Shown: positions 11,737 through 37,186 of the stretch, piece by piece
How the letters are laid out: each line of letters starts with the position of its first letter
How positions within the stretch are numbered: the first letter of the stretch is position 1
Assembly: GCA_021816865.1 (NCBI GenBank)
Contig: JAKAWX010000006.1
Coordinates: 62,001 to 126,000 of the forward strand
Reading direction: 5' to 3'
Origin: Thermoplasmata archaeon
GTDB taxonomy: Archaea; Thermoplasmatota; Thermoplasmata; Lutacidiplasmatales; UBA184
DNA: 64,000 nucleotides
Translations under genes and position numbers: made by a program
The notes under the pieces: model-generated
Database searches by the model: none
Told to the model about the DNA's origin: nothing
The model's input: the letters and a program-made list of their open reading frames with translations, nothing else

Positions 11737-12678
11737 CTAGTCCGCGGTCCGGTAGAGCGTGAGCGACGGGATCGCTTCGCGGAAACCGGCGGCGGCGAGC
11801 GCGGCGCGTCCGCGCGCGTTCTCCGCCGGCGCCATCGCCATCACCCGCGGCGCGCGGCGGGCCGCGCACCAGCCGACGGCCGTCCGGACGAGGGCGGCCG
11901 CCGCCTCGGGCGGGACCGAGGCGTCGACGATCGGGTTCGACAGGTGGGCCGCTTCGGTCGCGGGCGATATCGACGCCGAGACCCACGCCGTCGGCCCCGA
12001 CGCGCCCTCGATCACCCACGCGGCGCTCTCGCTCGTCAACACGCGGTCGACGGTCGGCGAGCCGGCGATCTCCCGGGCCCCGGTCGGCAGGACGCGCTCG
12101 ATCTCGGGCGGTCGGCCGCGGCGGGCGACCTCCGCGAGGGCGGCGGCGTCGCGCGGGTGGAACGGTCGCAGGCCCGGGGGCGGCGCGCGGGCCGGTCCAG
12201 CCTCCGACGGCCGCTCGTGGACGAAGATCGCCGTCTCCCGCAGCGTGCGGTAGCCGAGCGAATCGTAGAGCGCCCGGGCCGGTCGGTTCGCCGTCAGGAC
12301 GTCGAGCACGATGTAGCGTCGGCCGCGGACGCGCGTCGCGTGGCGCGCCCGCTCGAGCAGCGCGCGGGCGTAGCCGCGGTGGCGGTACGACGGGTCGACC
12401 ACGACCATGCTGACGTACCCCGACGCGCCCGAGAAGGTGAGCAGGGTGGTCGCCACGGTCCGCCCGTCCGCCTCGATGACGAAAAAGCGGTAGACCGGAC
12501 GGCCGACGAGCCTCAGGAACCCGAGGACGAGGCGGGCCTGCCAGCGAAAGACCCGGCGCACGACCTCCGCGAACCCCTCGGGCCGGGTCCCGAGGATCGC
12601 TTCCTCCTCGGGGAAGTACTTCTTCAGGAACTCGAGGAGCCACGGGGCGTCGGCGGCCCGAAGGTCGCGGACCGTCAC
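11737..12678 (-). CDS. GNAT-family N-acetyltransferase, two-domain
   Basis: A 313-aa protein with two GNAT-like halves. The first has the acetyl-CoA binding signature VVVDPSYRHRGYARALLE near residues 92-110 (R/Q-x-x-G-x-G/A) and NRPARALYDSLGYR. The second half is more divergent but ends in the same way (ENARGRAALAAAGFREA). A substrate amine cannot be inferred. GTG 12678 overlaps the stop of the HEAT-repeat gene as GTGA, so the two are translationally coupled. Confidence 0.8.
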   Translation of the reverse strand: MTVRDLRAADAPWLLEFLKKYFPEEEAILGTRPEGFAEVVRRVFRWQARLVLGFLRLVGRPVYRFFVIEADGRTVATTLLTFSGASGYVSMVVVDPSYRHRGYARALLERARHATRVRGRRYIVLDVLTANRPARALYDSLGYRTLRETAIFVHERPSEAGPARAPPPGLRPFHPRDAAALAEVARRGRPPEIERVLPTGAREIAGSPTVDRVLTSESAAWVIEGASGPTAWVSASISPATEAAHLSNPIVDASVPPEAAAALVRTAVGWCAARRAPRVMAMAPAENARGRAALAAAGFREAIPSLTLYRTAD

Positions 12679-14177
12679 AGCTCCTCGTCGTCCCCCGACC
12701 CCGGTATCGCCGTCTCGAAGAGCGCGCGCACCGTCGTCGGCGAGCGCTCGAGCTCGATCTCGGGGAGCGGCAGGCGCGGCCGGCGCTCGAGGTCCTCCTC
12801 GCTCAGTCGCTCGCGCACGTCGAGGAGCGCGCGGTGGATGAGCGGGTCGCTCGCGCCGTGGGCCAGCCGGCCGAGGGCCTGGACGGTCGCGTCGAAGAGC
12901 CGGCTTTCGGCGTCGGAGACGAGCGCCGCGGGGTCGGTCGGCACGGCGAGCGGCGAGCGCTCCTCCGGGTTCGGGCGGTTCTCGTAGAGCAGGCGGACGA
13001 GCTCCTCGCGGGCCCCGTCATCGCCGAGGCGGCCGAGCGTCCAGACGGCCGCGAGGCGCACCTCCGCGGCCGGGTCGGCAAGCTCCTCCCGAACGCGCGG
13101 CGCCGCCTCGGTGAGCCCGAGGGCGCCGATCGCGTACGTCGCCCCGCGCCGGGGCCACGGGTGCTCGTCGCGCAGGAGCGCGAGGAGCGCGGGCAGGTCG
13201 TCGGCCGTGCCGACCGCGCCGAGCGCGGCCGCCGCGGCGCCGCGGACGGACCACGCGGGGTCGTTTAGGTGCGCGAGGGCCACCGAGCGCGCGGGCTCGG
13301 CGCGCATCTCCCCGAGCGCGTGGACCGCGCAGACCCGGACCCAGTGGGCGGGGCTCTTTGCCTCGAGGAGGAGGGCCGGGACCGCCGCGGGGTCCCCGAT
13401 CCGTCCGAGCGCGACCAGGACCGCGGGCTTCTCCCAGGTCTCGCGTCGCTCGAGGAGGGCAAGGAGGGGCGCGACGCTCGCGCGGTCGCGCGAGCGGCCG
13501 GCGACCACCGCCGCCGCGACCCGCACCCGGCGCGCCGGGTCGTGGAGGAGCGGACGAAGGCGGTCGAGCGCGGCGCCGCCCGCCGCGCGGCCGAGCCCGA
13601 GGACCGCCTCGCGGCGGACGCGGTCGTACGGGTCGGAGAGCAAGCCGTCGAGGAGCGCGAGCGCCGGCTCGGTGCCGATACGTCCGAGGGCGGTCGCGAC
13701 GGCCCGGCGCACTTCCCGATCGGGGTCGTACGCTCGGGGCGAGAGCGCGGGCAGCGACCGGGCGTCAGCGAACGTCGCGAGGGCGTACGCCGCCTTCGTG
13801 CGGACGGACGGCTCGGGGTCGACGAGCGCGTGCTCGACCGTCGGGCGGCTCTCGGACCGTCCGATCGCACCGAGCGCGTCCACGACCGACCCCCGGACGG
13901 CGGGGTCCGGGTCCTGCGCGGTCGCCGCGAGCGTCGAGCACGCCCGACCGTCCTTGAGGATCCCGAGGGCGATCGCCGCGGTCTGCCGCACGCCCGCGAC
14001 CGGGTCGCTCAGCGCGACCAGGAGCGGACCGAGGTCCGGCACGTACCCGCGAACGACGCTCGCCCGGATCGCCGCCGCCCTCGCCGAGGGGGACGGGACC
14101 GGGTCGCCGTCGGTCGGCTCCGTCCGAGGCGACCGCCGCGCCGCGGTCCGGCGGCCGGGAGGGGATCGTCGAGGCAC
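12675..14177 (-). CDS. HEAT-repeat (PBS-lyase-like) scaffold protein, paralogue 1
   Basis: A 500-aa protein made almost entirely of ~31-residue HEAT repeats of the pattern DP---VR--A--ALG-IG (roughly residues 50-410), a solenoid used for protein-protein contacts. The last ~90 residues differ (VSDAESRLFDATVQALGRLA, then an acidic end). No lyase residues can be identified, so a scaffold role is most likely. GTG 14177 is 27 bases from a TATA box overlapping the polymerase stop. A clear paralogue lies at 18637-20058 on the other side of the PolB2 cassette; both share HPWPRRG, VRVCAVH-L and EVRLAAVW-LGRLGD blocks. Confidence 0.85.
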   Translation of the reverse strand: MPRRSPPGRRTAARRSPRTEPTDGDPVPSPSARAAAIRASVVRGYVPDLGPLLVALSDPVAGVRQTAAIALGILKDGRACSTLAATAQDPDPAVRGSVVDALGAIGRSESRPTVEHALVDPEPSVRTKAAYALATFADARSLPALSPRAYDPDREVRRAVATALGRIGTEPALALLDGLLSDPYDRVRREAVLGLGRAAGGAALDRLRPLLHDPARRVRVAAAVVAGRSRDRASVAPLLALLERRETWEKPAVLVALGRIGDPAAVPALLLEAKSPAHWVRVCAVHALGEMRAEPARSVALAHLNDPAWSVRGAAAAALGAVGTADDLPALLALLRDEHPWPRRGATYAIGALGLTEAAPRVREELADPAAEVRLAAVWTLGRLGDDGAREELVRLLYENRPNPEERSPLAVPTDPAALVSDAESRLFDATVQALGRLAHGASDPLIHRALLDVRERLSEEDLERRPRLPLPEIELERSPTTVRALFETAIPGSGDDEEL

Positions 14178-14198: not shown

Positions 14199-14210
14199 GC
14201 TAAAAGCTCC
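14199..14210 (-). promoter_or_regulatory. TATA box for the HEAT-repeat gene, on the PolB2 stop codon
   Basis: The complement GAGCTTTTAGCC lies about 27 bases before GTG 14177 and contains the TAG stop (14202-14200) of the upstream polymerase gene. Confidence 0.5.
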
Positions 14211-16536
14211 GCTCGGGAGTGGGCCCGGTTCCGAGCGACGACTGGCCGACCTCCTCGGGCGAGCGGTACGTCTCCCGCCGGACCGGGCCGCCTGCGCCCC
14301 AGCGCTCGAGGAGCCCGGCCCGGTCGACCCCGAGCGGAGCGAGGAGGGTCTCGGCGGCCCGCGCGAGGAGGTCGAGGTAGGCGTCCGCGTCGTACCGCTC
14401 GTCGCCGTCGAGGAGTTCGGCCACCCGCACCCGGTGGCGGAACGAGCGGCTCTCCCGGTCGAGGAGGACGAAGCCGACGACCTCGCCGGCCCCCCGCCGG
14501 GCCCCGGCGGCCTCGAGCTGGCGAAGGGCCGCGACCGAATCGGTGAACGTGACGAACGCCTCGGGCGCCTGGCCGACCCGGTGGCGGATGACGAGCTCGT
14601 CGACCGGCCAGTCGCCGGCCTTCAGGCGCTCGGCGAAGAGGTCGGCCCGGGCGAGCACGCGCGGGAGGAGGGCGCGAAAGCTCCCGGCGTCGCGCGCCCG
14701 CCCGAAGAGCGCGAGCGTCTCCTCCTCGAAGCGCCGCACGAACGCGGTCGTGTCGTGACGGCGGCCGCCGATCCCCCGCAGCTTGTAGCGGCCGTCCTCG
14801 TAGAGCCCGTAGTAGCGGTTCGGGACCCCGAGCCCGTGCGTCACCGCCGGCAAGAAGACGATCCAGCGGTACCGTCCCTCGTAGCCGAGCGGAAGGTCGA
14901 ACCGCTCGCTCATGCGCGCGGCGAACGCCTCGGGGTCCGGCGGGCGGTCGGGGTCGCGGGGCCGCAGCCAGAGCGAGTCGACGATCCCGTGGACGACCGA
15001 GTAGCCGGCGGCCTCGGACGCCGGGACGAGCGCGGCGAGGAGGTCGCGGGCGTAGGCGTTGATCGCCTCGTGGCACTCGATCCGCCCGAAGCGGGCGTTG
15101 CGGTACCCCTGGTAGCCGAACGCCGTGACGAGGATCCACTTGAGCATCTTGACGCGACGGCGCAGGCGCGACGCCTCCTCCGCGTCGAGCCCGGGCCGCT
15201 CGAGCGCGGCCTTGTAGGCGAGCCGGCGCGCGATAAGGGGCGCGAGCGTCCGTGGGATGAGGCCGACCGTCCGCGTGCAGGACCGGTAGCCCAGCCCCGG
15301 GGCCCGCAGGGGGCTCGCGGGGCAGCACCGGCACTCGAGCGTCTCGGCCGAGAGGTTCTTGCGGACCATGATGTGCGGGTAGAGGCTCGCGAAGTCGAAC
15401 TCGTCGAGCCGGTCGTGGACGCCGACCGGCGGGAGGAAGATCACCCCGCCGCGGTCGGCCTCGACCAGCCGGTCCGCGCGCCGGAACCCCTCGGGGCGGT
15501 TCTTCTTCCACGGCACGTGGACGCCGAGCTCGAGCGCGTGCGCCATCTCCATCGCGGTGAAGCACGTTCCGGGCGACTGGCGCACGACCGTCTGGAGCGA
15601 GAGCCGGGAGAGGCGGGCGGCGTCGACGAGGCCGGCGACCTCGGCATCGTCGTAGAGGAACGAGTTCTCGCGGTCGATGTGAAAGCGCCCGGGCAAGGGG
15701 TAGGTCGCGGACCGGTAGAGGACCCGGCCGTACGACTCGAACGAGCGGGCCGGTCGGACCGGCCGGAACGCGACCCGCTCGCGACCGAGCGCGAATTCGG
15801 CGGGGGAGAGCCCGCACGCGGCCGCCCGCCGGTAGAGCCACGGGAGGTCGAACGCGTCCCCGCCCTGCGTCAGCAACAGGTCGGGGTCGCTGCGCGCGAG
15901 CTCGCCGACGAGCGCGCGGAGGACGTCCGGCTCGGGACCCTCGAACGTCACGTCGCCGAGACGGACCGAGCCGATCCGCCCGTCCGGCGGCGGGATGCGA
16001 CCCCGCCGCTCGCCCGCGATACGGACCTCGAGCCGGGCGACGGCGAGCGGCGGCGGCACGTAGTCGATCGTCTCGGGCGGCTCGGTCGCGACGAGGTCGC
16101 GGCCGCTCCCGACGACGGGAGCGAACGGGTAGAGCGCGTGGCCGAGGTGGTAGAGCTGCGGCGGCACGAGGTCGACGTCGTAGAGCGTGAACGCGGCGTA
16201 TCCCCCGAGCGCGTCGACCGTGCGGGCGAGGGCCCGCCGACCGGGGTTCGTGCTCGGCGTGACGGAGAGGAGCGGCCGCACCCGATGGTCGAAGAGCGAC
16301 GGACGTCCCGAGCCGAGGACGACCTCGTCGACCACCGGTAGCCCGGCGAGACGCCGGGCGAGGTCGGCGAGCTCGGCCCGGGGGCCGGTGACGAGGAACG
16401 GGGGACGGTACTCGACCGCGGTGCGTCGGACCCGTCCCGTCCGCCGCTCCTTCACCCAGAGGACGACCGAACGGCCGTCGTCGCTCTCGGTGATGTCGAG
16501 GAGCCAGCCGTCCGGGGACGACGAACGGCCGGTCAC
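14200..16536 (-). CDS. B-family DNA polymerase, PolB2-like, altered catalytic motifs
   Basis: A 778-aa family-B polymerase. Motif A is intact in shape (DFASLYP, D381). Motif B reads K466-WIL-VTAFG instead of K-xxx-NSxYG. Motif C reads GIVDS (I518, V519, D520) instead of GDTDS, so the first catalytic aspartate is missing. In the exonuclease region the DIE triad start reads RLE, while AFDLPWL of Exo II is kept. These losses match the archaeal PolB2 group, regarded as partly inactivated and linked to DNA damage handling. GTG 16536 overlaps the 71-aa gene as GTGA. The cassette order is RadA-like, small protein, polymerase. PolD at 55-58 kb is the likely replicase, so this protein has another job. 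Confidence 0.85.
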   Translation of the reverse strand: MTGRSSSPDGWLLDITESDDGRSVVLWVKERRTGRVRRTAVEYRPPFLVTGPRAELADLARRLAGLPVVDEVVLGSGRPSLFDHRVRPLLSVTPSTNPGRRALARTVDALGGYAAFTLYDVDLVPPQLYHLGHALYPFAPVVGSGRDLVATEPPETIDYVPPPLAVARLEVRIAGERRGRIPPPDGRIGSVRLGDVTFEGPEPDVLRALVGELARSDPDLLLTQGGDAFDLPWLYRRAAACGLSPAEFALGRERVAFRPVRPARSFESYGRVLYRSATYPLPGRFHIDRENSFLYDDAEVAGLVDAARLSRLSLQTVVRQSPGTCFTAMEMAHALELGVHVPWKKNRPEGFRRADRLVEADRGGVIFLPPVGVHDRLDEFDFASLYPHIMVRKNLSAETLECRCCPASPLRAPGLGYRSCTRTVGLIPRTLAPLIARRLAYKAALERPGLDAEEASRLRRRVKMLKWILVTAFGYQGYRNARFGRIECHEAINAYARDLLAALVPASEAAGYSVVHGIVDSLWLRPRDPDRPPDPEAFAARMSERFDLPLGYEGRYRWIVFLPAVTHGLGVPNRYYGLYEDGRYKLRGIGGRRHDTTAFVRRFEEETLALFGRARDAGSFRALLPRVLARADLFAERLKAGDWPVDELVIRHRVGQAPEAFVTFTDSVAALRQLEAAGARRGAGEVVGFVLLDRESRSFRHRVRVAELLDGDERYDADAYLDLLARAAETLLAPLGVDRAGLLERWGAGGPVRRETYRSPEEVGQSSLGTGPTPERSF

Positions 16537-16748
16537 ACGGGACGGCGGTCCGTCCGCTCCGCCGCGGCGGCCCTCAGCTGCGCGGCGAGGTCCGTGAGCA
16601 CGGAGAGGAGGATCGACTCGAGCAGGTCCGGGCTCCCGACGTACGTCGCCTGGGCGGCGTAGCGACGGGCGCCCGTGCGGACGAGCTCGAAGGCGGCCCG
16701 CTCCTCGGGCGTCGTGAGGAGCCGGGCGAACTCGTCCCACCGCTTCAT
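16533..16748 (-). CDS. 71-aa helical protein of the PolB2 cassette
   Basis: A small protein starting MKRWDEFARLLTTPEERAAF, all-helical in character with two predicted amphipathic helices (around residues 3-30 and 40-62) and a basic end. It has no cysteines and no membrane segment. ATG 16748 overlaps the stop of the RadA-like gene (ATGA) and its stop overlaps the polymerase start (GTGA), so all three proteins should be made together. That suggests a subunit or adaptor linking the other two. I do not recognise the family. GTG 16793 is an alternative start adding 15 residues. Confidence 0.75.
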   Translation of the reverse strand: MKRWDEFARLLTTPEERAAFELVRTGARRYAAQATYVGSPDLLESILLSVLTDLAAQLRAAAAERTDRRPV

Positions 16749-17629
16749 CCGTTCCTCGAGCGCCTGGCGGTAGGTCGGAGCGGTGCGTCCCACGCGATCA
16801 CCTCCCCGACGGAGCCTCCGCCGAACTCTTCGATCCCGCGCTGGCCGGTCGACCGCGCCACGAGGGTGGCGCGGGCGTTGTCCCGCAGCGCGCGCAGGCG
16901 GAGCGTGCCGGGGCCTCGCGCGAACGTGACGAGGTCGCACCACCGGGGACCCGCCTCGGCGAGCCCGGGAAAGCTCGCGACCCCGCCCGGCCCGAGCGTG
17001 AGGAGCAGCGGGACGCGGACCTCGCGCACGAGCTCGGCGAGCGTGCCGGCGAGGTGGCCAAGGAGCGCCGTACGCTCCTCGGCGGGGACCTCGGCATCGT
17101 TCGCGAAGAGCGCCGGCAGGTCGTGCCCGAGGAGCAGGCTCGGAGGATGCCGACGGGCCTCGACGGCCCACCCGTCGATGAGCGCGACCAGCTGGTACAC
17201 GGTGAACGCGCGGGCGAGCCGGATCCGCGCGAGCGTCGCGGTCGCGTCGACCCCGAACGCCCGCCCGAGCTCCCCGACGCGGTACGGGTGGAACCGGTTC
17301 GCCCCTTCGACGAGGGAGATCCGTCCCCCGGCCCGGGCGCTGCCGGCGTAGAGGAGCTCGAGGATCGGCTCGACGGCGGCCCGCGGGCCGGTCCAGATCG
17401 TGGCCTCGCCGGGAGAGAACCGACGGGCGAGCCAGGGAAAGAGCGCCGGCTCGCTCGGGAGGAGCGGGAGGGGACGGGCCCGACGGGGGCGGGACGACAG
17501 CCGGACCCCCGGAGGAAGCGACAACGGGATCGCGCACGGCTCCTCGGCGACGACACTCGGGTCGACCGGTTCGTCCTCGTCCGGCGCGAGCGAGAGCCCG
17601 GTGGAGATGCGAGCGGTGGTCAACGTCAT
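16745..17629 (-). CDS. RadA/RecA-fold protein without a Walker A lysine
   Basis: A 294-aa protein aligning with the RadA/RadB ATPase core. The strand-loop RISLVEGANRFHPYRVGELG corresponds to the RadA segment with consensus Y-DTE--FRPERI--IA. The following LARIRLARAFTVYQL matches VL-NI--ARAYN--HQ, and SLLLGHDLPALF sits at the Walker B position. The Walker A site reads WTGPRAAVEPIL and lacks the GKT/S, so ATP hydrolysis is unlikely. It is the first gene of the PolB2 cassette, with a TATA box about 32 bases upstream. A RecA-like partner beside an unusual polymerase recalls the bacterial ImuA-ImuB-DnaE2 mutasome; that comparison is inference. Confidence 0.78.
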   Translation of the reverse strand: MTLTTARISTGLSLAPDEDEPVDPSVVAEEPCAIPLSLPPGVRLSSRPRRARPLPLLPSEPALFPWLARRFSPGEATIWTGPRAAVEPILELLYAGSARAGGRISLVEGANRFHPYRVGELGRAFGVDATATLARIRLARAFTVYQLVALIDGWAVEARRHPPSLLLGHDLPALFANDAEVPAEERTALLGHLAGTLAELVREVRVPLLLTLGPGGVASFPGLAEAGPRWCDLVTFARGPGTLRLRALRDNARATLVARSTGQRGIEEFGGGSVGEVIAWDAPLRPTARRSRNG

Positions 17630-17655: not shown

Positions 17656-17667
17656 CGCTCTAAAGCG
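17656..17667 (-). promoter_or_regulatory. TATA-like box for the PolB2 cassette
   Basis: The complement CCGCTTTAGAGC is centred about 32 bases before the ATG at 17629 and is the only A/T-rich element in the gap. I see no inverted repeat that would mark a damage-responsive operator. Confidence 0.45.
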
Positions 17668-17684: not shown

Positions 17685-17711
17685 GAAACAGCCCCGAGAA
17701 CGGGGCGTTTC
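17685..17711. repeat. Inverted repeat / hairpin between DUF72 and the PolB2 cassette
   Basis: GAAAC-A-GCCCCG, a four-base loop, then CGGGGC-GTTTC: eleven base pairs with one bulged A. It lies 19 bases after the DUF72 stop and about 20 bases upstream of the cassette TATA box. It could be a 3'-end hairpin for the DUF72 transcript. No T-run follows on either strand, so a classical terminator is not supported. Confidence 0.5.
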
Positions 17712-17729: not shown

Positions 17730-18497
17730 CTACGGGGTCAGGCGGGACGTTCCGGGCGGAGGCGGGAGCCCGAGCTCCTCGGCGAGGGTCCGGCAGTTCG
17801 TCGCGGCGTCGCCCCGGAAGTGATTGTTGAAGAACCCGTAGATCGTGGCGACGTTCTCGGCGAGGGTGCGGATCCGCGGCACCCACGCGACGACCTCCTC
17901 GCGCGAGTAGAGGTAATCGTACCAGATCGGGCTCCCGTGCCCGTGCCAGCGGATGTAGGCGAACGGCGCGGTCACCTCGAGGGCGACCGGCAGGTGCGGC
18001 CCGTCGACGATCACGTGCGCGAGGCCGAACTCCCGCAAGAGCGCGTACGAGGCGGGAACGAGCCACGACCGCTCGCGAAACTCGACCGCGACCGGGAGGT
18101 CCCTCGGGAGCGTCTCGTAGAACCGACGCACGGTCGCCGCCTCGAAGGGCAGCGACGGCGGAAGCTGGAGGAGCGCCGCCGCGAACCGCCCCGCCTCGCG
18201 GATCGGCTTCAGCACCGAGAGGAACCGGCCGAGCTCTTCCTCGGTGCCGACCAGGCGGAGGTCGTGCGTGATCGATTGCGGGAACTTGGCCGCGAACCGG
18301 AACGCGCCGGGAGTCCGCCGCACCCAGGACGCGGCGACCGAAGGCGGGGGCAACCGGTAGAACGTCGAGTTGACCTCGACGATGGGGAAGATCTTCGCGT
18401 AGTAGTTGAGGCGGTCCGAGACCCGCCGTGGCGGATAGACACGGCCGACCCACTCCGGGTAGTCCCATCCGCTGGTCCCGAGCAGGATGTCGCTCAC
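17730..18497 (-). CDS. DUF72 family TIM-barrel protein
   Basis: A 255-aa DUF72 (YecE-like) protein. Family marks are GTSGWDYPEWVGRVYPP at the N-terminus, YAKIFPIVEVNSTFYRLP, FRFAAKFPQSITHD, VAVEFRERSW and YIRWHGHG, ending with IYGFFNNHFRGDAATNC. The fold is a TIM barrel and the biochemical function is not established; association with nucleic-acid or Fe-S metabolism has been suggested for the family. GTG 18497 has a TATA-like GATTAACC about 35 bases upstream. Its position next to a repair-type cassette may be meaningful but is not proof of a repair role. Confidence 0.9.
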   Translation of the reverse strand: MSDILLGTSGWDYPEWVGRVYPPRRVSDRLNYYAKIFPIVEVNSTFYRLPPPSVAASWVRRTPGAFRFAAKFPQSITHDLRLVGTEEELGRFLSVLKPIREAGRFAAALLQLPPSLPFEAATVRRFYETLPRDLPVAVEFRERSWLVPASYALLREFGLAHVIVDGPHLPVALEVTAPFAYIRWHGHGSPIWYDYLYSREEVVAWVPRIRTLAENVATIYGFFNNHFRGDAATNCRTLAEELGLPPPPGTSRLTP

Positions 18498-18636: not shown

Positions 18637-20058
18637 CTACGACCTTCCGGGCGAGACAGGCCCCCGGCGCTCCCGGGCCCGTCGAAAGAGATCCCGCAGG
18701 GTCGCTCCCGACCCGTCGGCACCGAGCGGGCTCGGGAGGCGGGCCGGGCGGTCGAGCTCGCGGTCCGGCAGCTCCGCCTCGACCTCGCCCAGCGCGGCCC
18801 GAGCGGCGTTGCCGTCGGGACCGTCGGGAAGCGAACCGAGGGCGTCCACGAGAGCGTCGAACCACCGTGCGTCGGCGTCGGAAACGAGACGCACGGCCCC
18901 CTCGCCCTCCGAGAACGTAACGAGGGACCGCGCCGAGGGGGACCGGGTCGCGCGGAGGAGCGCGAGGAGGGGGGCCCGAGCCGTCGCATCCCCGAGCCGC
19001 CCAAGGGCCCAGACAGCGGCGAGGCGGACCTCGGGGTCCGGATCGTCGAGCGCCCGCCGGACCGCACGGGCGGCCCCGAGGATCCCGAGCTGCCCCAGGG
19101 CGTAGAGGCTCCCCCGGCGGGGCCAGGGATGCGGGTCCCCGAGCCGTCGGAGGAGCGCCCGCGCGTCGGCCCGCGTTCCGACCCGCCCGAGCGCGAGCGC
19201 GGCCGCCCCCCGGACGGCCCACGACGGGTCGGACAGTCTCGAGCGCGCCACGCCCCGCGACCGGGGGGACCGGGAGAGCGCGAGACCGTGGACGGCACAG
19301 ACCCGGACCGCGCTCATCGGGTCGCGGGAGGCGCGGACGAGCGCGGCCCCGCTCGCCCGCCCGCCGATCCGCCCGAGGGCGATCACGAGCGCCGGGCGCT
19401 CCCACGCTTCGGCACGGCGCAGGCGCTCGAGCAGCGCCGGAACGCTCGCCCGGTCCTTCCGTGCCCCGAGGACGACGGCGACCGCGATACGGACGCGGCG
19501 CGCCGGGTCCGCGAGCAGCCGTCGGACCGTCCGCGGCACGTCCGACGCTCCGCAGCGGTCGAGGGCGAGCACCGCCTCCCGGCGCACGCGGTCCGACTCG
19601 TCGTCGAGGGCCCGCACGAGCGCCGGCACGCCCGCCGGATCCCGGACGTGGCCGAGCGCGAGGGCGCACGCGTTGCGCACGAGCGCGCTCTCGTCCGCGG
19701 AAAGGCGCTCGGCGAGCCGCGGACCGGACCGCCGGTCGGCGAGACGGGAGAGGGCGTACGCCGCCTGCGCCCGCACGTGCGCGTTCGGGTCGCGCAGCGC
19801 TCGCTCGAGGGCCCCGCGGCTCCGCGGGTCGGCGATCGTCCCGAGCCCGGACGCAGCGCCGACCCGCACCCCGTGGTCGGGGTCGGCGAGCGCCCGCTCG
19901 AGCGGACGGCGCGCCCGCTCCCCCGCGACCGTGAGGAGCGAATGGACCGCCCGACGGCGGCCGAGGACGTCCGGACCGCGGAGCGCCGCGACGATCGTGT
20001 CGCGCGCCGCGTTCGGGGAGCGGGGCGAGAGGGGAGCCGTCCGACGACCTCGCGGCAC
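18637..20058 (-). CDS. HEAT-repeat (PBS-lyase-like) scaffold protein, paralogue 2
   Basis: A 473-aa HEAT-repeat solenoid, clearly homologous along its length to the protein at 12675-14177. Repeats run from about residue 25 to 370 (ADPDHGVRVGAASGLGTIAD, DPARRVRIAVAVVLGARKDR), followed by the same non-repeat C-terminal block (RLVSDADARWFDALVDALGSL). GTG 20058 was chosen because the encoded start VPRGRRT resembles MPRRSPPGRRT of the paralogue; the frame stays open upstream to 20268 but overlaps the ferredoxin gene there. No clear TATA box was found. Probably a protein-interaction scaffold. Confidence 0.8.
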   Translation of the reverse strand: MPRGRRTAPLSPRSPNAARDTIVAALRGPDVLGRRRAVHSLLTVAGERARRPLERALADPDHGVRVGAASGLGTIADPRSRGALERALRDPNAHVRAQAAYALSRLADRRSGPRLAERLSADESALVRNACALALGHVRDPAGVPALVRALDDESDRVRREAVLALDRCGASDVPRTVRRLLADPARRVRIAVAVVLGARKDRASVPALLERLRRAEAWERPALVIALGRIGGRASGAALVRASRDPMSAVRVCAVHGLALSRSPRSRGVARSRLSDPSWAVRGAAALALGRVGTRADARALLRRLGDPHPWPRRGSLYALGQLGILGAARAVRRALDDPDPEVRLAAVWALGRLGDATARAPLLALLRATRSPSARSLVTFSEGEGAVRLVSDADARWFDALVDALGSLPDGPDGNAARAALGEVEAELPDRELDRPARLPSPLGADGSGATLRDLFRRARERRGPVSPGRS

Positions 20059-20189
20059 GTGCCCCCCAGCCCTCGCGGGGCAAAGCCCTCGCGCACGACT
20101 CCTCCCGGGCGGGGGAGGCGGGGCCCCCGGCGCCGGGCGGGCCCGGTCGCCGTTCCGGGCGTCGTCCCCCCCTCCTCCGCCCGACGGCA

Positions 20190-20200
20190 AGCCATATAGA
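20190..20200 (+). promoter_or_regulatory. TATA box for the ferredoxin gene
   Basis: The sequence gccatatagag is a good archaeal TATA element, centred about 39 bases before the ATG at 20234, leaving a short leader that contains GAGG. Confidence 0.6.
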
Positions 20201-20233
20201 GGTCGACGACGAGTTCGTTGTGAGGCGATCCGG

Positions 20234-20512
20234 ATGGTCCTCGTCGACATCGATCTCGCCAAGTGCACCGGCTGTGCTCACTGCCGGGACGTCTGCCCGG
20301 TGAACGTTTTCGAGCTCAAGCCGCGCGACCAGTTTCCCGATCTGGTCGACGATCCCGCCGTCGGCGCGAAGTTCCAGTTCCGGGGCGAGAAGTCGGTCTC
20401 GGTGCACGGCCCCGACTGCATCGTCTGCGAGGCCTGCCTCTTCGAGTGCGAAGGGGAATGCATCCTGATCACGGACGACGAAGGGAACGTCCACAACTCG
20501 GTCTACAAGTGA
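20234..20512 (+). CDS. Ferredoxin, 2[4Fe-4S] type
   Basis: A 92-aa electron carrier. The first cluster motif is CTGCAHCRDVCP (residues 11-22). The second is CIVCEACLFECEGEC near residues 65-79, slightly expanded compared with C-x2-C-x2-C-x3-C. About 40 residues with a conserved DQFPDLVDDP stretch separate them, as in thermoplasmal and haloarchaeal-adjacent ferredoxins and in the ferredoxin-like domains of oxidoreductases. It is monocistronic with its own promoter. Likely partners are 2-oxoacid oxidoreductases, none of which is in this window. Confidence 0.85.
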   Translation: MVLVDIDLAKCTGCAHCRDVCPVNVFELKPRDQFPDLVDDPAVGAKFQFRGEKSVSVHGPDCIVCEACLFECEGECILITDDEGNVHNSVYK

Positions 20513-34189: not shown

Positions 34190-34393
34190 CTTATACTGGG
34201 GGACTGTAGGCGGCGCCGGAGGGTTTTCGAGGTGTCTCGAGCGACACAATCCGCGTCGTCGATCGCGGTCTTTCGGCAAGAAACGGCCTCCTCCCGAGGG
34301 CGTTTCAGCGACCGGCGGTCGACCGATTAGGTCGCTCGCAGTAGGGGCTATCTGCACCCGAGACGTCCTCGGTTTCCCTCAGGAGTGAGCCCG
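34187..34393 (+). promoter_or_regulatory. Promoter and long leader of the ribonucleotide reductase gene
   Basis: A clear TATA element (accttatactgg, 34188-34199) lies about 200 bases before the nrdJ start, predicting a leader of about 170 bases, unusual in a window of mostly leaderless genes. A weaker A/T patch (ggctatctgc, 34347-34356) could be a second promoter close to the gene. The leader contains a small stem (TGTC-TCGAGC-GACA) and ends with the ribosome binding site aggag at 34381-34385. I see no B12-box-like sequence, so a cobalamin riboswitch is not supported by eye. Confidence 0.5.
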
Positions 34394-37186
34394 ATGGCTG
34401 TGTCCAAAAAGCGCGCCGTTCCCGTGTCGGAGGAGTCGCCCGGTCGGGCGGCCGTCCGTATCGGGCGCGAACCGATTCCCGTTCCCCGTCTCGTGCCGCG
34501 CGGCAAGACCGCGTTCGACACCGTCCAGTGGCGGAGCCACGATGCGGTGATCAAGAACGCCGAAGGCAAGGTGATCTTCGAGCAGAAGGGCATCCACGCC
34601 CCCGCCTCCTGGTCGGAGACGAGCGTCAACATCGCCGCGTCGAAGTACTTCCGCATCCTTCAGGGGCGCCGCGAGAGCTCGATCGACGGGATGATCCGGC
34701 GCGTCTGCCACTGGATCGCCCAGCGCGGCGTCGAGCTCGGATACCTCGACACCGCCGACGAGGCGACGACCCTCGAGGAGAGCCTCTCCTACCTCATGGT
34801 CCAGCAGATGGCGGCGTTCAACAGCCCCGTCTGGTTCAACGTGGGGGTCCGCGAGCCCCCGCAGTGCTCCGCGTGCTTCATCCAGTCGGTCGCCGACGAC
34901 ATGGACTCGATCCTCGGCCTCGCGACCAGCGAGGGCCGTCTCTTCAAAGGCGGCAGCGGGACGGGGACGAACCTCTCCGCGCTGCGCGGGAGCCACGAGA
35001 AGCTCGCCGGCGGCGGGATCGCCTCGGGGCCAGTGTCGTTCATGCGCGCCTTCGATGCGCTCGCCGGCGTCATCAAATCCGGCGGGACGACCCGACGCGC
35101 GGCCAAGATGGTCATCCTCAACATGGACCATCCGGACGTGGTCGACTTCATCGAGTGCAAGGTCCGCGAGGAGGACAAGGCGCTCGCGCTCATCCGCGAG
35201 GGCTACTCGTCGAACTTCGACGGCACCGACCCCGACTCGGCCTACGCGTCGATCGCCTACCAGAACGCGAACCACTCGGTGCGGGTCCCGGACGCGTTCA
35301 TGGACGCGGTCGTGCGCGACGGCGAGTGGAAGACGTACAACCGGACCGACCACTCGGTCGCGGGGACGTTCCGCGCCCGCGAGCTCTGGCGCAAGCTCGC
35401 CTACGCCGCCTGGCGCTGCGGGGACCCCGGCGTCCAGTTCGACGATGTCACGAACGACTGGCACACCTCGCCGAACTCGGGCCGGATCAATGCCTCGAAC
35501 CCGTGCAGCGAGTACCTGTTCCTCGACGACTCGGCGTGCAACCTCGCGTCGATCAACCTCATGAAGTTCCTCGACGCGAAGGGCCAGCTCGACGTCGAGT
35601 TCTTCCGCCAGGCGACGCGCACGATGGTCCTTGCGATGGAGATCCTCGTCGACGCGTCGAGCTACCCGACCGCGCCGATCGCCCAGAACTCCCACGACTA
35701 CCGGCCGCTCGGGCTCGGCTACGCCAACCTCGGCGCCCTGCTCATGCACTACGGCCTCGCCTACGACTCCGACGAGGGACGCACCCTCGCCGCCGGGGTC
35801 TCGGCGTTCCTCTCGGCCGAGGGGTACCACATGTCGAGCGAGGTCGCGAAGCGGATGGGGTCGTTCGCGGGGTTCGAGAAGAACCGCGCCCCGATGCTCC
35901 GCGTGATGGGCAAGCACGCGAAGGCCGCGGAGCGGATCGCGCTCAACGACCCGCGCCTCTCCGCCCTCGTCCGCGCGTCGGTCGACCGGTGGCACGACAC
36001 GGTGAAGGCCGGCGAGCTGTGGGGGTACCGCAACGCCCAGATCTCGGTCATCGCCCCGACGGGGACGATCGGGCTCCTCATGGGCTGCGACACCCTCGGT
36101 CTCGAGCCGGAGCTCTCGCTCGTCAAGACGAAGAACCTGGTCGGCGGCGGCGTCCTGAGGATGGTCAACCGCACGGTCCCGGACGGACTCGCCGCGCTCG
36201 GCTACTCGACCGACGAGATCCGCGCGATCACCGAGCACCTCGAGAAGAACGGGACCGTCGAGGGAGCGCCCGGGCTCGCGCCCGAGGACCTCGCGGTGTT
36301 CGACTGCGCGCTCGCCCCCGCGGGCGGGACCCGGACGATCCCGCCGATGGGCCACCTGAAGATGCTCGGCGCCGTCCAGCCGTTCCTCTCGGGAGGCGCG
36401 TCGAAGACGATCAACCTCCCGAACGACGCGACGGTCGAGGACATCGAGAAGATCTACACCGAGGCCTGGCACCTCGGGATCAAGTCGGTCGCGCTCTACC
36501 GGGACGGCTGCAAGGCTTCCCAGCCGTTCGAGACCGGCAAGGGTCGCTCCGGCGCGCCGGTCGGGCCGCGCGGCCCCGCGCGCGAGCGCCTGCCCGACGA
36601 GCGCAAGGCTGTGACGCACCACTTCTCGGTGGGCGGCCACGACGGCTACGTTACGGTCGGCCTCTACCCCGACGGGCGCGTCGGCGAGCTCTTCTTCCGC
36701 GTCACGAAAGAAGGGTCTACGGTCAACGGTCTCATGGACTCGCTCGGGATCTCGATGTCGATGGCGCTCCAGCACGGGGTGCCGCTCAAGGACCTTGTGC
36801 GCAAGCTCGCGCACCTGCGCTTCGAGCCGGCGGGGGCGACCAACAACCCGAAGATCCGCTTCGCGAAGTCGATCCCCGACTACGTCGCCCGGTGGCTCGC
36901 GCTCGAGTTCCTCACCGAGGAGGAGCGCCGCGCGATCGGCCTCGAGGGCCCGGCCGAGGGGAACGGGAACGGCCACGCGCCGTCGCCCGCCCCGAAGGCG
37001 TCCGCGCCCGCGAGCCAGACCGTGAAGTTCGAGACCCGGCCGCTCGACGCGTTCGGCCCGGACGCGGCGGTGGGAGGGTCGACGAGCGAGGATGCGCCGA
37101 GCTGCGCCGTCTGCGGCGGGATCATGGTCCGATCGGGAACGTGCTACGCGTGCACGGTCTGCGGGTCGACGAGCGGGTGCTCGTAA
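34394..37186 (+). CDS. nrdJ: Adenosylcobalamin-dependent (class II) ribonucleotide reductase
   Basis: Makes deoxyribonucleotides with a B12 cofactor instead of a diiron centre. The 930-aa protein has the N-terminal QWRSHDAVI, the FNSPVWFNVG segment, CSACFIQSV with the first redox cysteine, SGGTTRRAAKM, the radical site NPCSE (N369, C371, E373), then the PTGTIGLLMGCDT loop, and a C-terminal zinc-ribbon (CAVCGG, CYACTVCG). Length is typical of the long NrdJ form. ATG 34394 is eight bases from AGGAG; GTG 34385 is an alternative adding three residues. The gene implies B12 synthesis or uptake elsewhere. Confidence 0.97.
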   Translation: MAVSKKRAVPVSEESPGRAAVRIGREPIPVPRLVPRGKTAFDTVQWRSHDAVIKNAEGKVIFEQKGIHAPASWSETSVNIAASKYFRILQGRRESSIDGMIRRVCHWIAQRGVELGYLDTADEATTLEESLSYLMVQQMAAFNSPVWFNVGVREPPQCSACFIQSVADDMDSILGLATSEGRLFKGGSGTGTNLSALRGSHEKLAGGGIASGPVSFMRAFDALAGVIKSGGTTRRAAKMVILNMDHPDVVDFIECKVREEDKALALIREGYSSNFDGTDPDSAYASIAYQNANHSVRVPDAFMDAVVRDGEWKTYNRTDHSVAGTFRARELWRKLAYAAWRCGDPGVQFDDVTNDWHTSPNSGRINASNPCSEYLFLDDSACNLASINLMKFLDAKGQLDVEFFRQATRTMVLAMEILVDASSYPTAPIAQNSHDYRPLGLGYANLGALLMHYGLAYDSDEGRTLAAGVSAFLSAEGYHMSSEVAKRMGSFAGFEKNRAPMLRVMGKHAKAAERIALNDPRLSALVRASVDRWHDTVKAGELWGYRNAQISVIAPTGTIGLLMGCDTLGLEPELSLVKTKNLVGGGVLRMVNRTVPDGLAALGYSTDEIRAITEHLEKNGTVEGAPGLAPEDLAVFDCALAPAGGTRTIPPMGHLKMLGAVQPFLSGGASKTINLPNDATVEDIEKIYTEAWHLGIKSVALYRDGCKASQPFETGKGRSGAPVGPRGPARERLPDERKAVTHHFSVGGHDGYVTVGLYPDGRVGELFFRVTKEGSTVNGLMDSLGISMSMALQHGVPLKDLVRKLAHLRFEPAGATNNPKIRFAKSIPDYVARWLALEFLTEEERRAIGLEGPAEGNGNGHAPSPAPKASAPASQTVKFETRPLDAFGPDAAVGGSTSEDAPSCAVCGGIMVRSGTCYACTVCGSTSGCS

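Follow-up and report, generated by a model that had tools for sequence, protein, structure and literature searches.

A PolB2 mutasome cassette in Lutacidiplasmatales with a candidate operator shared with ribonucleotide reductase and a conserved cysteine motif

The genes described here lie on the minus strand, at 14200-17629, of a stretch of 64,000 nucleotides (nt) of contig JAKAWX010000006.1 (the window), from a soil archaeon of the order Lutacidiplasmatales (Thermoplasmata). They form the PolB2 "mutasome" operon iRadA-PPB2-PolB2, which very probably encodes an archaeal PolB2 translesion synthesis complex. The cassette is of an already known kind: the polymerase family was described early (PMC2527604), the operon by 2014 (PMC4104785), and the complex was modelled in 2025 (PMC11791011). 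The original prediction, made from the sequence of the window, had called a PolB2, a degenerate RadA and a bypass complex, all of which is right and already published (PMC4104785, PMC11791011). The interest rests with an inverted repeat in front of the cassette and a cysteine motif in the polymerase. It is tentatively proposed, with a confidence that stays somewhat under even, that Lutacidiplasmatales have an SOS-like two-unit regulon without LexA, in which one operator at a matched distance from a TATA-like box serves both the PolB2 mutasome and a vitamin B12-dependent ribonucleotide reductase (RNR), together with a conserved Cys4/Cys3His metal site in the PolB2 core.

The cassette and its polymerase

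The three genes overlap, as had been predicted, and are listed here with the main sites of the polymerase (aa, amino acids).

16745..17629, minus strand: iRadA, inactive Rad51/RadA-family protein, 294 aa, first gene of the cassette (Pfam Rad51, DMC1 chain, AlphaFold2/Foldseek, no GK[T/S])
16533..16793, minus strand: PPB2 (arCOG07300-like), 86 aa, corrected start GTG 16793, N-terminus MGRTAPTYR (alignment of 27 rows; 49-nt overlap with iRadA)
14200..16536, minus strand: PolB2 B-family DNA polymerase, 778 aa, GTG start at the GTGA join (DNA_pol_B, NCBIfam, AlphaFold2/Foldseek)
15394..15396, minus strand: codon of motif A Asp381 (invariant in 31-row and 10-row alignments)
14974..14991, minus strand: motif C HGIVDS, residues 516-521, with I518 for the first Asp and D520 kept (alignments)

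Profile searches placed the polymerase in family B (Pfam DNA_pol_B, E 5e-15), with just E 0.095 for the exonuclease domain. Type B polymerase families of NCBIfam match as well, all below their curated cut-offs (subfamily E 1e-121). In the AlphaFold2 model (predicted local distance difference test, pLDDT, 86.5), strands 512-518 and 521-526 flank the turn of motif C; the top 50 Foldseek matches are archaeal family B polymerases and engineered forms. The original prediction had allowed for another Asp at the motif C site in a structure-based alignment. At the level of sequence, an alignment to the solved PolB 5mdn puts GIVDS over GDTDS without gaps, though folding may still bring another Asp near the site. 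The same alignment contains no Exo I acidic motif or pair, by which the exonuclease active site is judged lost, leaving no proofreading.

The predicted motif readings, i.e., D381 as motif A, GIVDS for GDTDS with I518 for the first Asp, and VTAFG for NSxYG, hold in the alignments. However, to speak of lost catalytic residues was too strong, because D381 (motif A), K466 (motif B) and D520 (motif C) are invariant in the 31-row alignment, where the first-Asp position of motif C is Ile or Leu, and also in an alignment of 10 more diverse rows that includes haloarchaeal and Leptospira phage proteins. A weakened polymerase or a structural complex is likewise not favoured, since Sulfolobus Dpo2 is active despite the same loss and the residues expected to hold metal are kept here. 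In Dpo2 the second motif C Asp holds metal, and the enzyme without the first one matches the replicase in nucleotide incorporation and acts as an extender (PMC8764526). It is damage-inducible and solely responsible for targeted mutagenesis in Sulfolobus (PMC7390963). The site of the window PolB2 is probably altered and working, and by analogy with Dpo2 the enzyme would be active. The reading first put forward in 2008, in which PolB2 has no catalytic activity and is a structural subunit of the replication machinery (PMC2527604), is highly improbable: the lost first Asp of motif C and the missing Exo I motif fit this idea, but a purely structural role has no need of three residues kept across Thermoplasmata, haloarchaeal and phage members, and Dpo2 is active (PMC8764526).

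Besides these residues, Asp288, a candidate for the Asp of the D(K/R) loop motif, is invariant, followed by Arg here and by variable residues among relatives. The motifs of replicative PolB (PolB1/PolB3), YGDTDS and NSxYG, are not found in PolB2, which has HGIVDS and VTAFG; the genome has a separate PolB with NSFYG as motif B. A role of the cassette as a replacement for Y-family polymerases was considered and rejected, as a DinB-type polymerase (IMS family) is matched in the own genome and, counting this one, in 28 of the 61 genomes searched.

PPB2 and iRadA

Of the predicted gene joins, the GTGA join between PPB2 and PolB2 stands. The size of 71 aa and the ATGA join do not, because the 71-aa start removes the diagnostic MGRT arm. 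Translation from GTG 16793 yields 86 aa and an overlap with iRadA of 49 nt (16745-16793), a length shared by 54 of the 69 named loci measured. The published PPB2 signature is an N-terminal MGRT with Arg at 3 and 9 (PMC11791011), and the corrected protein satisfies it. In an alignment of 27 rows, window included, M1-T4, P6, T7 and Y8 do not vary and R9 hardly does, and a script that searched for such starts found an in-frame [M/V/L]GRT in 74 of 75 PPB2 matches. Pfam gives no match for the small protein. PHROG 30126, function unassigned there, matches it with E 7e-4.

For iRadA, the Pfam Rad51 match lies just below the cut-off (E 1.8e-4; 21.3 bits, cut-off 22) and the best solved chain is DMC1 (E 4e-5). 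The AlphaFold2 model (pLDDT 83.5) again has DMC1 as best Foldseek match (E 3.7e-12), with 629 matches in the PDB at E < 0.001. The Rad51/RadA ATPase fold is therefore weak by sequence and clear by predicted fold. Residues 1-60 have no predicted helices and residues 1-50 a mean pLDDT below 65, so that an N-terminal helical domain is lacking. As predicted from the sequence, GKT is missing: GK[T/S] is absent from all 72 iRadA stretches read, window included, and the GR[T/S] or GK[T/S]-like triplets that occur somewhere in 21 of them are all GR[T/S]. On this sequence evidence iRadA is without a Walker A motif or P-loop. PHROG 16666, function unassigned there, matches the window protein with E 5e-5.

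iRadA, as a Rad51 core minus the ATP-binding loop, is expected to dock on a loop of PolB2 in the way RadA docks on RadA, and the MGRT arm of PPB2, a small and presumably helical, trimeric protein, is expected in the cleft between PolB2 and iRadA; the three proteins would bind each other. The best described system of this kind is the mutasome of S. islandicus (Dpo2, PPB2/arCOG07300, iRadA), which has the same three families, a one-Asp motif C with His (HxxxD), lost proofreading, the MGRT arm and a RadA without ATPase residues. The window cassette differs from it by its high-GC Thermoplasmata host, the length of its polymerase (778 aa versus 555 aa for Dpo2), the 49-nt iRadA/PPB2 overlap and a different promoter element.

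Two bacterial systems invite comparison. In the ImuA-ImuB-DnaE2 cassette, ImuB is Y-like and DnaE2 is of family C. A system working in this way, with iRadA as the ImuA equivalent, is extremely improbable: a RecA-fold partner, a small partner and a specialised polymerase do share one operon, but the polymerase is of family B, no cassette gene matches a Y-like ImuB or a family C DnaE2, and the published architectural parallel is another and closer one, E. coli Pol V (PMC11791011). The predicted likeness to ImuA-ImuB-DnaE2 thus survives as a loose analogy. Pol V (UmuD'2-UmuC-RecA) also combines a specialised polymerase, the arm of a small partner and a RecA-family subunit (PMC11791011). Unlike the cassette, it has a Y-family polymerase, an active RecA and a different small subunit, and the family searches did not identify the cassette genes as Pol V members (Y-family UmuC, UmuD', RecA).

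A repeat shared by the cassette and ribonucleotide reductase

The promoter region of the cassette and a second locus in the window have the following features in common.

17685..17711, minus strand: inverted repeat GAAAC-N17-GTTTC, candidate operator, upstream of iRadA (conserved in relatives)
17658..17665, minus strand: CTTTAGAG, TATA-like box with a putative promoter role, 28 nt ahead of the iRadA ATG, with 19 nt between it and the repeat (spacing conserved in relatives)
34280..34306, plus strand: second copy of the inverted repeat, before RNR (genome pattern match; inverted-repeat finder, arms 11 nt, 91%)
34394..37186, plus strand: vitamin B12-dependent RNR, putative co-regulated gene (NF005122, 1245.6 bits, over cut-off)

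Among relatives, 70 cassette loci have 320 nt before the conserved iRadA start, and 55 of these, window included, are closer ones with a PolB2 of about 60% identity or more. The form G(A/G)AAC-N14-18-GTT(T/C)C, 24-28 nt long, is present in 53 of the 55 closer loci, usually followed after 18-20 nt by CTTTAGAG or a CTTAAG-like box. It was not found in any of 20000 random pieces of the window (pieces that overlapped the two known sites were skipped but still counted in the total). The pattern GRAACN{14,18}GTTTCA occurs twice in the own genome, at the cassette site and at 34280-34307, the latter ending 86 nt before the ATG of the RNR gene. The arms pair at 8 of 11 positions in the cassette copy and at 10 of 11 in the RNR copy.

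In 41 genomes of the same genus this pattern has 131 matches, compared to 14 for the backward control. From 37 genomes with an RNR match, 30 RNR loci of the same genus were returned. In 23 of these 30 a site of a slightly stricter form than that used for the cassette (GRAAC...GTTTC or GAAAC...GTTYC) is present, its start 112-135 nt ahead of the gene. By eye, L206, L207, L219 and L224 have GGAAC...GTTCC, which would bring the number to 27. When the TATA-like box is added to the repeat, 83 matches remain versus 12 for the backward control, of which 25 are at RNR (22 genomes) and 23 at the cassette (23 genomes). These sequence patterns make the repeat a candidate shared stress operator for the cassette and RNR. 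We infer that such a damage- or replication-stress operator would increase both dNTP supply and lesion bypass. When DNA is damaged or forks stall, an unnamed regulator would act at the repeat, so that RNR and the mutasome go up at the same time. The dNTP level would then rise, and PolB2, kept in place by iRadA and the arm of PPB2, would extend primers beyond lesions or mismatches.

Several observations weigh against a shared stress operator. Among the 15 cassette loci below about 60% PolB2 identity the repeat occurs in just 2. Seven of the 30 RNR loci fail the pattern, and L212, L213 and L221 are without a repeat even by eye. Of 40 fetched regions around sites, 15 contain RNR (86-104 nt away) and 3 iRadA, leaving 22 with neither. 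Similarly, 35 of the 83 full-pattern matches are near neither RNR nor a listed PolB2 place. Part of these stray matches must be more than chance, because the backward control has just 12; some look like cassettes, with second iRadA genes in L182 and in L193, and genomes G061-G064 were without a PolB2 search. The inverted-repeat finder reported the RNR copy and missed the cassette copy. Lastly, survival after hydroxyurea is unchanged in S. islandicus without PolB2 (PMC8100216), so that a tie between PolB2 and replication stress is not general.

The hydroxyurea result, together with RNR being one of the two targets, also speaks for a cell-cycle or dNTP-level operator rather than a damage operator. 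This alternative is nevertheless less likely, given that the second target is a cassette for lesion bypass, and relatives of this cassette are induced by damage in Sulfolobus (PMC7390963).

As to what might act at the repeat, LexA and NrdR were rejected, since neither has a match in the own genome (83% complete), in searches that each matched 9 of 14 control genomes. Orc1/Cdc6, with one match over the cut-off and further weak ones, is a candidate only. An SOS-box reading of an AACG-CGTTC core was replaced by the longer repeat after comparison of diverged relatives; with one mismatch, the short pattern is a common one, occurring 19 times in the window against 7.3 expected. Sites of the same palindromic form in L166, L194, L195, L170 and L191 stand beside an HxlR-type regulator gene (Pfam E 9e-22 in L166, the others by eye) or, in two genomes, some 110 nt ahead of a frame of 796 aa that has no Pfam match. 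Either gene as a third regulon member was dropped, as the sites are inconsistent.

The repeat resembles the A(N)TTTC damage element of Sulfolobus, which is found upstream of BRE/TATA in damage genes and is close to the half-site GTTTC (PMC5817253, PMC9738581). In contrast, the Sulfolobus element is a non-palindromic hexamer at -44 to -39, while the repeat is inverted, 24-28 nt long and 18-20 nt upstream of the TATA-like box. An exact ACTTTC occurs upstream of iRadA in the more distant L105, L106 and L108, about 20 nt before a TTTATA box. A literature search on the repeat and regulon returned no paper, and the consulted passages of PMC9287336, on the host order, do not mention DNA polymerase or PolB; we did not find the shared repeat in print.

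A cysteine motif after motif A

15277..15333, minus strand: C402-x-C404-C405-x14-C420, candidate metal site after motif A (80 of 80 Thermoplasmata, 14 of 14 others)

The pattern CxC[CH]x12-16C starts 21 residues after the motif A Asp. As C-x-C-C-x14-C it is present in all 80 Thermoplasmata PolB2 (79 loci and the window). Haloarchaeal proteins have C-x-C-H...C (12/12) and phage proteins C-x-C-C...C (2/2), with the last Cys after 12-16 residues. Four of the haloarchaeal and both phage sequences had been chosen before the motif was noticed and the other eight haloarchaeal ones to test it, the haloarchaeal set being drawn from 104 plasmid records with a match. The other PolB of the own genome (L002) does not have the motif.

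A Zn or Fe-S site at this motif is rather likely. Disulfides between the conserved cysteines, with no metal site, are less probable but a serious alternative. C405 and C420 align to both Cys of the KOD-type enzyme 8s84; a disulfide has been proposed for the conserved palm Cys of KOD-type enzymes (PMC6051491), which we read as the pair in 8s84, and disulfides have been discussed among the 7 Cys of Sulfolobus Dpo2 (PMC8764526, PMC7390963). Against this, the third position is His in all 12 haloarchaeal proteins, a residue that forms no disulfides and is a common metal ligand, and the pattern holds in hosts of soils and salterns.

Like the PolB2 motif, the CysX motif of eukaryotic Pol epsilon is located soon after motif A. 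CysX is a four-Cys [4Fe-4S] site in a family B catalytic domain and is needed for DNA binding and activity (PMC9581978). Its place is the base of a P-domain, which the window PolB2 does not show, and the likeness drawn here is one of description. Before the C-terminal domains reported in PMC7544198, no metal-binding domain had been detected in archaeal PolBs, and CysX is confined to Pol epsilon (PMC7544198). Iron-sulfur is mentioned for primase only in the consulted part of PMC8100216. Cysteine, zinc or metal terms are absent from PMC8721586 and from the part of PMC11791011 consulted, and the PolB2 passages of PMC7776575 hold no note of a Cys or metal motif. Among the literature matches listed, we did not find the motif in print.

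Distribution and neighbourhood

The host genome measures 1.54 Mb, with a window GC content of 72.9%. The closest named match of the window is L032, a Thermoplasmata metagenome-assembled genome (99%); others include UBA184 and AcS/SubAcS genomes, which have been assigned to the Lutacidiplasmatales (PMC9287336). Missing linkage in relatives had been named as a possible refutation of the original prediction, and the linkage is there. From 79 named relative loci, for which 5 kb was fetched, 73 have at least 1.4 kb upstream; iRadA, PPB2 and PolB2 are contiguous in 66 of these and within 5 kb in 3 more.

A strong PolB2 match (E < 1e-30) was obtained in 40 of the 61 genomes searched. PPB2 is present in 37 of these 40 and in none of the remaining 21, and the three strong-PolB2 genomes without PPB2 carry partial PolB2 matches only. 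Within the genus, 32 of 37 genomes have a strong PolB2. The distribution outside it is patchy, because three genomes of the same order and another family have no PPB2 and weak polymerase matches. PolB2 has been linked with low GC in Crenarchaeota, with two named exceptions (PMC7390963). This link does not extend to the host order, given its GC of about 65-70% (table rows of PMC9287336) and the frequency of strong PolB2 in the genus.

Haloarchaeal plasmids have, in the same order, a Cdc6 gene, a gene at the place of iRadA, PPB2 and PolB2. They share the MGRT arm, and their PolB2 is 33-35% identical, whereas the third ligand of the Cys motif is His and the neighbour is Cdc6/Orc1 instead of DUF72. 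For the gene at the iRadA place, the Rad51 score exceeds the cut-off in L115 and falls short of it in L112 and L114; L115 is also matched by the iRadA profile, at 96%. In Leptospira phages a related polymerase follows an MGRT reading frame. In one of them (L116:3023-3307) this frame is 94 aa long, where the record annotates a shorter gene; by its sequence it looks like an unannotated PPB2, and Pfam gives no real match for it. A scan of viral contigs with the PolB2 profile gave 24 pattern stretches, none confirmed.

Some arrangements are split. In L182 (G006) and L193 (G030) a repeat-bearing iRadA-like gene and the main cassette are on different contigs, which may reflect second cassettes or mixed bins. 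In L026/L075 and L177 (G028), PolB2 is separate from iRadA and PPB2, which share another contig with the repeat.

The neighbouring gene upstream of the cassette is the following.

17730..18497, minus strand: DUF72 protein directly upstream of the cassette (DUF72 E 1.4e-63)

DUF72 is a frequent one among the reported polB2 neighbours (PMC11791011). HEAT-repeat proteins are encoded on either side of the DUF72-iRadA-PPB2-PolB2 block, at 12675-14177 and 18637-20268 on the minus strand (HEAT_2 E 2e-87 and 1e-58).

Some points count against a translesion complex encoded by a conserved block. Four of the 73 loci are without one or both neighbour genes, and DUF72 is upstream on the same strand in 37 of the 62 named loci that extend 3.1 kb or more upstream, not in all. 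PolB2 has no clear clamp-binding motif, its C-terminal QSSL being without aromatic residues, and no biochemistry of any Thermoplasmata PolB2 was found in the literature.

Implications

The cassette shows a PolB2 mutasome in a euryarchaeal order of high GC content, which does not fit a simple reading of the PolB2/low-GC link reported for Crenarchaeota. If the metal site is real, it would add a new feature to the catalytic core of PolB2 and bear on the making of recombinant PolB2, and the metal could help to explain why Dpo2 is poorly active when produced in E. coli and robust from Sulfolobus. Likewise, the shared repeat, if it is an operator, would offer a handle on damage or replication-stress control in an order in which, in the one genome searched, neither LexA nor NrdR was found; two genes and a single DNA element are thereby named for testing this control.

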